Below are positions 29,653 to 31,512 of a DNA stretch of 64,000 nucleotides, one piece after another. This stretch comes from Methanococcoides vulcani (GTDB taxonomy: Archaea; Halobacteriota; Methanosarcinia; Methanosarcinales; Methanosarcinaceae). The position numbers and the translations under genes are program-made. The stretch lies in contig NZ_FOHQ01000006.1 in assembly GCF_900111645.1 (NCBI RefSeq), positions 1-64,000 of the forward strand. Direction: 5' to 3'. The notes beneath the pieces were generated by a model. It worked only from the letters and a program-made list of their open reading frames with translations. It ran no database searches and had not been told where the DNA came from. Within the stretch, counting starts at the first letter, position 1; each line of letters starts with the position of its first letter.

Positions 29653-30309
29653 ATGTCTAGCATAAAAAAGATCTTGATAGTAGCAACTATAATCACATTG
29701 CTGGTAGGTCTAACTAACGTTTCTGCAGCTGCTTCAGATGTAACTTTAAAGCCATCATCACAGACCATTGCACCGGGTGAAACTTTCACAGTCGAAATCT
29801 TTGTTTCTCCTGATGTTGATATTGCAGGAATCCAGTTCGATCTGCTTTTTGATAGTTCTCAGTTCCAGGTATCAGATGTGAGTGAAGGAAGCTTGTTCAA
29901 GCAAAGTGGTATGGATACATTTTTTGTTTCAGGTTCTGTAAATTCAGGTTTACTAAATGACGCATATGGTTGCATTCTCGGTGCTTCAGATGTCGCAACA
30001 CCAGCAACTTTTGCTATCATCACGTTAACAGCAACTGAACAGGCAAATGGAAGATCAGAGTTAGTCCTGAAAGATGTTATAATCAGTGATCCAGAAGGTA
30101 ATTCTGTAGATCTCGAATTAACAAATACAGTGATCTCAGTCCTGATCTTTGATATAAACCAGGATAATGTGGTTGACTTTGGTGATTATGGTCTAGTTGA
30201 ACAGCATTTCGATGAAACCACCTCATATCCTTATCCTCTATGGGATGTAAATCAGGATAATATTGTAAATGTCCTTGATATGATGTTGGTACTGTCGCAT
30301 ATGGACTGA
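29653..30309 (+). CDS. Exported cohesin-dockerin protein
   Basis: 218 residues. A signal peptide (about 1-26, ending SAAAS) is followed by a cohesin-type beta-sandwich (about 28-165: VTLKPSSQTIAPGETFTVEI, IAGIQFDLLFDSS, and LTATEQANGRSEL). A C-terminal type-I dockerin follows with two calcium-loop repeats (DINQDNVVDFGDYG and DVNQDNIVNVLDMM). Cohesins bind dockerins, so the protein could link to partners or to itself outside the cell. AAAGGAAAAA precedes the ATG. It lies 18 bases upstream of another cohesin gene, so they form a two-gene operon. Confidence 0.87.
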   Translation: MSSIKKILIVATIITLLVGLTNVSAAASDVTLKPSSQTIAPGETFTVEIFVSPDVDIAGIQFDLLFDSSQFQVSDVSEGSLFKQSGMDTFFVSGSVNSGLLNDAYGCILGASDVATPATFAIITLTATEQANGRSELVLKDVIISDPEGNSVDLELTNTVISVLIFDINQDNVVDFGDYGLVEQHFDETTSYPYPLWDVNQDNIVNVLDMMLVLSHMD

Positions 30310-30327
30310 TAATGGTAAGGTGTCCCG

Positions 30328-31512
30328 ATGGAAAAGTATATTTTCATCTCTGGAAAAAGTAAATTTTATTCCTTACTATTTTTTTCTTTGTTTACTATTA
30401 CTTGCCTTAGTGGAATTGCCAGTGCCAGTACGACCATCAGCATCATACCCACCTCTCAATCAGTAGAGGAAGGGCAGAACTTTGCTGTGAGTTTCTATTT
30501 GGATCCGGACCGTCCGGTTGCTGGTATCCAGTTCGACTTGTCTTATGACAGTGAACTTGTCAAGGTTGTTCAGGTCTCAGAAGGTGAATTCTTAAGGCAG
30601 GATGGTGCTCTTGTCTGGTTCAATCCAGGTCAGATCGAAAGCTCAAATGGGAGAATTGATTCTGTGTATGGCCTGATATTGGACAAGACAAGCGTTACAG
30701 AACCGGAAGATTTTGTTGTCATCCATATGAAGGCTGGCAATGTATCAGGTATAAGTTCTCTGGAACTCTCTAATGTTGTAGTTAGTGATACTCAAGGGCA
30801 GATCATACCGATAGATGTTGTTAATGGATCAGTTACTATCGTATCTGATACAGCTTCATCTACTAAATCTAAGACCAGTGACAAGGATGATTATGGAGCT
30901 GGCGGAATTAGCACCACAAGCGGATCCTATGAGGAATTTGAGATCATAGAGAAATCCAGCCGGTCTGTGTATCTTGGTTCTCAGGTTTCCTATCAGTTCG
31001 ATAAGCCTGAAAATCCCATTATGTACATCAACTACGAATCTCTCACAAATGCCGGCAATGTTGTAGCAACAATTGAAGTCCTTAAGCAGACATCTCTTCT
31101 CGTTTCATCACCTCCTCCCGGTATTGTCTACAAAGATGTGAATATCTGGTTGGGTAAACCCGGTTATAGCACTGAGAGCAATATGAAGGATGCAGTTATT
31201 GGATTCCGGGTAGACCGATCCTGGCTTGAAGAGAACCAGATATCTGATAGCTCTGTAATGATGTATCGCTATGATCAGGACCTGTGGGTACCCCTTTCAA
31301 CAAAGAAGATCAATGAGAGCAGCAGCGATGTGAGCTTTGAAGCAGAAACTTCTGGTTTTTCACCTTTTGCGATAGTGGGTGAAAGCTCCGATGATATAAC
31401 CGGAAAAACAGAGGTTGATGATACTCCTGCAGAGGATGAAAGTCTTGATCAGAATGCAGCTTTTATTTTGTGTCTATCGATGTTACTACTCCTATTTGCC
31501 AGAAGGCATTAA
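30328..31512 (+). CDS. Cohesin and PGF-pre-PGF domain surface protein
   Basis: 394 residues. A signal peptide (ending GIASAS near 34) precedes a cohesin domain (about 36-175: ISIIPTSQSVEEGQNFAV, VAGIQFDLSYDSELVKV). A low-complexity Ser/Thr/Asp linker (about 178-215) leads to the PGF-pre-PGF domain (about 245-350: GFRVDRSWLEENQI, YRYDQDLWVPL, SGFSPFAIVG) and a C-terminal hydrophobic helix with terminal RRH. That end resembles archaeal surface sorting/anchoring tails, although no PGF triplet is seen. It is probably held at the membrane and could capture the dockerin protein encoded just upstream. Confidence 0.85.
   Translation: MEKYIFISGKSKFYSLLFFSLFTITCLSGIASASTTISIIPTSQSVEEGQNFAVSFYLDPDRPVAGIQFDLSYDSELVKVVQVSEGEFLRQDGALVWFNPGQIESSNGRIDSVYGLILDKTSVTEPEDFVVIHMKAGNVSGISSLELSNVVVSDTQGQIIPIDVVNGSVTIVSDTASSTKSKTSDKDDYGAGGISTTSGSYEEFEIIEKSSRSVYLGSQVSYQFDKPENPIMYINYESLTNAGNVVATIEVLKQTSLLVSSPPPGIVYKDVNIWLGKPGYSTESNMKDAVIGFRVDRSWLEENQISDSSVMMYRYDQDLWVPLSTKKINESSSDVSFEAETSGFSPFAIVGESSDDITGKTEVDDTPAEDESLDQNAAFILCLSMLLLLFARRH

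Follow-up and report, generated by a model that had tools for sequence, protein, structure and literature searches.

In the window, the whole stretch of 64,000 nucleotides of Methanococcoides vulcani that was analysed, two genes on one strand, 18 bases apart, both encode cohesin proteins (Table 1). The product of the first gene, P1, has a cohesin domain (50.4 bits against a cut-off of 24.1 for Pfam PF00963) and a dockerin domain (29.0 bits against 22.9 for PF00404) separated by a gap of 3 residues, and the spacing D-x-N-x-D-x-x-x-[ND]-x-x-D is present in both loops of the dockerin. The signal region is the sole hydrophobic stretch of P1 in the hydropathy analysis. The product of the second gene, P2, has a cohesin (36.6 bits against the same PF00963 cut-off of 24.1), a PGF-pre-PGF domain and a C-terminal tail in which the hydrophobic stretch begins at about residue 372. 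The first-pass annotation had described P1 as a cohesin joined to a dockerin with two calcium loops, which is borne out by two Pfam matches above cut-off and two full loops, and P2 as a cohesin with PGF-pre-PGF and a C-terminal membrane tail, where the domains are confirmed and the tail itself is without PGF.

Table 1. Features at and upstream of the P1-P2 locus, in positions of the window.
Feature	Position	Strand	Basis
Reductase-to-PPTase gene group upstream of P1	22951-28217	-	Domain matches
P1, cohesin-dockerin protein (adaptor), 218 aa	29653..30309	+	ORF, domains, orthologues, selection
P1 signal peptide region, about residues 1-26	29653..29730	+	Hydrophobic windows begin at residues 1-10 only
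P1 cohesin domain, residues 34-162	29752..30138	+	PF00963, E 3.4e-13
P1 dockerin domain, residues 166-213	30148..30291	+	PF00404 (Dockerin_1), E 1.2e-6
P1 dockerin calcium loop 1, residues 167-178	30151..30186	+	Sequence
P1 dockerin calcium loop 2, residues 198-209	30244..30279	+	Sequence
P2, cohesin + PGF-pre-PGF + membrane tail (anchor), 394 aa	30328..31512	+	ORF, domains, orthologues
P2 cohesin domain, residues 41-171, class distinct from that of P1	30448..30840	+	PF00963, E 6.4e-9; tree
P2 PGF-pre-PGF domain, residues 202-351	30931..31380	+	TIGR04213, E 1.2e-50
P2 C-terminal tail: LDQN motif, hydrophobic stretch, basic end	31444..31509	+	Alignment; hydropathy

Both proteins are conserved in five congeners, with 82-94% identity for P1 and 67-81% for P2. 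For P1 the mean dN/dS over 28 pairs from 8 orthologues is 0.09 in the dockerin and 0.12 in the cohesin, and the signal region is the fastest evolving part of the protein (0.41). By these estimates purifying selection is acting on P1, most strongly on the dockerin. The strong conservation of P1 and P2 together with the low dN/dS of P1 shows that the observation of the two genes is not due to chance.

The predicted model of P1 was compared with the PDB, and all 50 matches listed are cohesins or cohesin-holding cellulosome chains (best E 4.3e-10), with the Archaeoglobus fulgidus cohesin 2xdh at rank 3 (E 6.7e-10). The identity to the solved cohesins is only 10-20%, and the dockerin part of the model (residues 170-218) has a pLDDT below 50. 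A sequence search of the PDB with P1 alone gave three weak matches (best dockerin E 0.055, cohesin E 0.17), and a search with a profile of the P1 orthologues gave nothing at E 0.01. The P2 profile gave weak matches to solved cohesins, the best with an E-value of 3.6e-4.

The PGF motif is absent from the P2 tail, and no PGF-CTERM match was obtained in NCBIfam at E-values up to 1. P2 was considered as an archaeosortase-anchored PGF-CTERM protein and this was rejected because the tail is without PGF; the genome has one archaeosortase gene. The sequence L-x-Q-N ahead of the membrane stretch is invariant in all 14 aligned proteins of the P2 type (cohesin-PGF-pre-PGF), comprising 6 P2 orthologues and 8 sequences of an unlinked paralogue, named C10-type after its contig in this genome. 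Judging from the alignment, L-x-Q-N before a C-terminal membrane stretch is possibly an undescribed sorting signal. The tails of PGF-pre-PGF proteins in this genome were read at 7 of 8 loci, and once P2 and the C10 protein are set aside the remaining 5 tails depart from LDQN; PGF is present in one of these 5 (L010), and the reading of the L012 tail may miss the true end. Besides P2 of the window, the loci recorded for these aligned proteins are L017, L070, L073, L076, L079, L082, L085 and L090.

The whole genome (2.31 Mb in 15 contigs, completeness 99.95%) contains four cohesins in four separate proteins, namely P1, P2, a cohesin-PKD protein on contig C14 and a cohesin-PGF-pre-PGF protein on contig C10. 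Two dockerins are above cut-off, one in P1 and one in a protein of 1012 amino acids on contig C8, and a third match (C5:471844) is far under the cut-off (E 0.02). The first-pass annotation had named the lack of any other dockerin protein in the genome as part of what would refute its model, and with the C8 protein this part of the refutation fails. No multi-cohesin scaffoldin was found in the whole genome; this absence, together with a total of only two dockerins, led to the rejection of a cellulosome proper. The long chain that had been suggested from P1 and P2 is not favoured because each protein has one cohesin. The cohesin-PKD protein of this genome (C14:24705-25082; L015:4574-5926) represents a third cohesin class and has no dockerin match.

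A phylogeny of 32 Methanococcoides cohesins shows one group each for P1, P2, the C10-type anchor, the cohesin-PKD proteins and the cohesins internal to the large dockerin proteins, with support from 94/95 to 100/99 for the five groups and a long-branch warning for P2 with the anchor group. The dockerins of P1 and those of the large dockerin proteins are plainly different sequences. Taken from tree and alignment, the separate cohesin classes and the unlike dockerins fit two binding specificities without proving them.

Large dockerin proteins, here called cargos, are present in all 11 Methanococcoides genomes searched, this genome (G000) included. The C8 cargo carries its dockerin at the C-terminus, together with a beta-helix, Ig-like domains, a Disaggr_assoc domain (E 4.3e-36) and a Disaggr_repeat domain (E 3e-75). 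A Disaggr_assoc protein from a different genus in the family shares 32% identity with it over 478 columns. The gene has polysaccharide genes around it; 7 of 8 chosen neighbouring ORFs match flippase, glycosyltransferase, PGA_cap, UDP-sugar dehydrogenase or UDP-GlcNAc 2-epimerase families and the eighth has no Pfam match at E 1e-6. A Disaggr_assoc paralogue (L092:1824) was excluded from this count. This disaggregatase-related paralogue (L092:1824-4058) has a CBM9_1 domain and no dockerin and lies about 13 kb from the dockerin-bearing gene. Glycosyltransferase or flippase genes also adjoin the cargo in genomes G044 and G060.

Twelve cargos from the 11 genomes were scanned with Pfam and a thirteenth (G062 C10) was left out. 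A beta-helix was found in 10 of the 12, Disaggr_assoc in 7, CBM9_1 in 6 and Disaggr_repeat in 4, and the 10 cargos with a beta-helix are the same 10 that have CBM9_1 or Disaggr_repeat. Pfam gave no match to beta-helix, Disaggr_assoc, Disaggr_repeat or CBM9_1 in the cargo of G044 or in the one linked to P1 in G060. Domains of the CBM9_1, PKD and Ig-like types are common among the cargos. The statement of the first-pass annotation that no degradative enzyme is present thus holds in the vicinity of P1 and P2 in this genome, and probably does not hold genome-wide, the C8 dockerin protein being disaggregatase-related. A further point against it is that in four congeners a large dockerin protein is encoded directly upstream of P1.

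A PDB sequence search with the Disaggr_assoc protein L061 gave no match. Residues 45-545 of the cargo of Methanococcoides seepicolus were modelled with AlphaFold from two sequences, with a pLDDT of 63. Foldseek gave weak E-values for this beta-helix (best 8e-4; RbmB lyase 2.7e-3). With VIA-align the model matched AlgE6 (Z 29.4, rmsd 3.1, 312 aligned), RbmB (Z 29.2, rmsd 2.5, 297 aligned) and a PL6 lyase (Z 27.5, rmsd 3.3, 317 aligned), and the AlgE4 epimerase is also among the matches with Z 27-29. Phage tailspikes and one adhesin (PfbA) score nearly as high. As modelled, the M. seepicolus cargo holds a beta-helix of carbohydrate-active type; the fold alone shows no activity.

Close relatives of P1 were found in M. 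seepicolus (G061), M. alaskense (G060) and a Methanococcoides MAG (G062). P1 has an intact dockerin in 8 genomes (G000, G002, G016, G028, G037, G051, G061 and G062), and in all 8 it is directly followed by P2, which upholds the earlier pairing of a membrane cohesin with a secreted cohesin-dockerin partner. The start codon of P2 is ambiguous in G061 and G062, where the first ATG gives 345 amino acids and the cohesin requires the longer frame. G044 and G060 retain the P1 cohesin next to a decayed P1 dockerin, and their locus is without P2. The P1 dockerin and P2 therefore go together in 10 of 10 genomes, with both present in 8 and neither intact in 2. Decay of the P1 dockerin where P2 is absent is expected if this dockerin serves P2. 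The genes downstream of the locus are the same in all ten genomes other than G058. The eleventh genome, G058, was considered as a further case and is uninformative; the locus is absent from the assembly and the neighbouring phosphoesterase was not found.

The tree of P1 groups the decayed sequences of G044 and G060 together (100/98), whereas the tree of a neighbouring gene joins G060 with G061 and G062 (99/97). The trees of downstream genes had suggested that G044 and G060 lost the P1 dockerin and P2 independently of each other, which was rejected because the P1 tree joins the two. On the P1 tree the joint loss is accordingly counted as about one event.

Four of the 10 genomes that have the P1 locus (G044, G060, G061 and G062) carry a large dockerin gene immediately upstream of P1 and in the same orientation. 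The order is cargo-P1-P2 in G061 and G062, and cargo followed by the decayed P1 in G044 and G060. The large dockerin gene is located elsewhere in the remaining 6 genomes. The helicase gene downstream of the locus yields a tree with two subclades, one (100/100) made up of the four genomes with linkage and the other of the six without it. The linkage of cargo and P1 is thus a subclade trait (4 of 4 against 0 of 6 in the subclade of the window) and may count as one event. The cohesin of P1 is kept beside the cargo dockerin gene in G044 and G060, where its own dockerin is lost, and it follows that the P1 cohesin does not need the P1 dockerin.

The gene group upstream of P1 in the window includes a FabG-like SDR, an NAD-synthase-like protein, a WbuX-like amidotransferase (under cut-off), an AMP-ligase, an ACP-like protein and a PPTase-like protein; acylation or amidation of a surface sugar is a possible function of the group. 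Homologues of the first three and the end of a ligase gene adjoin a second dockerin protein of disaggregatase type in G060 (L111). In G058 a reductase and part of an NAD synthase adjoin a dockerin-disaggregatase gene (L088) and run to the end of the stretch fetched. Judged by gene neighbourhood, these homologues in G060 and G058 again tie the surroundings of P1 to the cargo, possibly through one event.

The domains, conservation, gene order and cargo family, all read from sequence, give about an even chance that P1 serves as adaptor and P2 as anchor in a small system, probably monovalent, by which a large dockerin protein is docked on the cell surface. Predicted pairings, membrane location, catalytic activity and substrate would then combine as follows. 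P2 would be held in the membrane through its C-terminal tail, with its cohesin displayed outside the cell. The secreted P1 would plug its dockerin, with calcium, into the P2 cohesin, and the P1 cohesin, of another class, would hold the C-terminal dockerin of a large secreted beta-helix protein with sugar-binding domains, which in this genome would be the disaggregatase-related 1012-aa C8 protein. As the outcome, a polymer-cutting or polymer-binding protein would be kept at the surface, where it would trim or hold the matrix of the cell itself. The more specific version, a cellulosome-like tether of three parts in which P2 and a monovalent P1 hold a dockerin-tagged enzyme of disaggregatase type that cuts the cell's own extracellular polymer at the surface, giving the cell control over its aggregation, is put forward tentatively.

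What the cargo does at the surface can be read in a second way. It may be an adhesin rather than an enzyme, in which case the beta-helix and the CBM-like domains would take hold of other surfaces or of the matrix, and cohesin and dockerin would together act as a tether for attachment. Beta-helices are also adhesin folds, PfbA is among the structural matches, and the frequency of CBM9_1, PKD and Ig-like domains in the cargos is a further point for an adhesin. The closest structural matches are, however, mostly polymer-acting enzymes, and the disaggregatase family is named after an enzyme that cuts methanochondroitin; the adhesin reading appears somewhat unlikely. For the Methanosarcina mazei disaggregatase, the available text of PMC12369344 describes cutting of the matrix polymer methanochondroitin and dispersal of aggregates.

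The true receptor of the cargo could also be the unlinked C10 anchor or the C14 cohesin-PKD protein, which would make P1 and P2 a separate pair. The C10-type anchor was found in 8 of 8 genomes where it was fetched, a set that includes G044, with its locus without P2, and G058, with its assembly without the locus, and that G060-G062 lie outside. Against this, the cargo gene adjoins that of P1 in 4 of the 10 genomes and no C10-type cohesin anchor stands beside a cargo in the regions fetched, and this alternative is unlikely. Quite improbable is a purely structural pair in which the cohesin of one P1 binds the dockerin of the next to give head-to-tail fibres rooted by P2, a reading near to the surface-building role that the first-pass annotation proposed; the placing of both partners in one P1 chain at a distance of 3 residues, possibly as a rigid polymer unit, and the close spacing of the two genes speak for it, but G044 and G060 have kept the P1 cohesin and the adjoining cargo dockerin gene while losing the P1 dockerin, and every genome of the genus has a large dockerin protein.

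The adaptor and anchor proposed here have counterparts in known systems. A. fulgidus AF2375/AF2376 is a noncellulosomal cohesin-dockerin pair, encoded by ORFs with consecutive numbers and reported to bind strongly and specifically, for which no role is given in the available text of PMC9705933. The Methanococcoides locus is similar in being archaeal, in having neighbouring dockerin and cohesin genes and in lacking a scaffoldin, with binding here predicted; it differs in that the anchor has PGF-pre-PGF and a membrane tail and in that there is a beta-helix cargo with a dockerin of its own. In Ruminococcus flavefaciens, ScaC is an adaptor whose single cohesin admits a class of enzymes and ScaE is a surface-anchored single cohesin (PMC5301203, in the part available). 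P1 and P2 follow the same logic of adaptor and anchor, as predicted from their domains. Unlike in R. flavefaciens, no multi-cohesin scaffoldin was found in this genome, which has only two dockerins, and its archaeal anchor is not of the LPXTG type, whereas ScaE is sortase-anchored.

The same domains occur in related archaea. In ANME, cohesin and dockerin proteins include scaffoldin-like ones; a single protein can have as many as 5 cohesins and the totals are much higher, according to the sections available of PMC9012536, whereas in this genome each protein has one cohesin. That paper, from 2022, states in these sections that the implications of archaeal cohesins and dockerins are not clear from their presence alone. 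Archaeal cohesin-dockerin pairs are already known from A. fulgidus, and the counts of four and two are in print for M. burtonii, which is tabulated with 4 cohesin and 2 dockerin domains, as is A. fulgidus (Table 2 of PMC5244752). The C8 cargo resembles the Methanosarcina disaggregatase family in having both Disaggr_assoc and Disaggr_repeat, with cleavage here predicted. A disaggregatase joined with a dockerin was not found in the literature searched. No description that combines the compact set with the archaeal anchor and a cargo of disaggregatase type was found in the literature searched, which may miss earlier ones.

The small size of the set, with 4 cohesins and 2 dockerins in this genome, makes every pair testable in one experiment. 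If the cargo cuts the matrix of its own cell, cohesin-dockerin docking would be linked to the control of aggregation in methanogens and the archaeal modules would gain a defined function. Methanococcoides includes cold-living members, and the locus supplies candidate cohesin-dockerin pairs from such a genus.

The family was sampled with 60 genomes from 14 genera. Dockerins were found in 31 of the 60 genomes and cohesins in 32. A cohesin lies within 1.2 kb for at least 44 of 79 listed dockerin matches (24 genomes), and two or more cohesins do so for at least 21; the nearby cohesin in at least 44 of the 79 indicates that cohesin-dockerin proteins with a further cohesin close by are a recurring theme. 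Disaggr_assoc is present in 19 of the 60 genomes and in 4 of the 14 genera. The five genomes of genus g7 in the sample (G007, G021, G032, G047 and G054) have many Disaggr_assoc proteins and no dockerin or cohesin, whereas the cargo of Methanococcoides is dockerin-tagged. Among the matches listed, a dockerin and Disaggr_assoc are found in one reading frame only in Methanococcoides.

Another recurrent layout in the genus consists of a cohesin-dockerin protein beside a small cohesin frame, found at L086:4433-6262 in G051, on C14 in G058 and on C17 and C3 in G062. The cohesin-dockerin protein of this layout in G051 bears a PD40 propeller.
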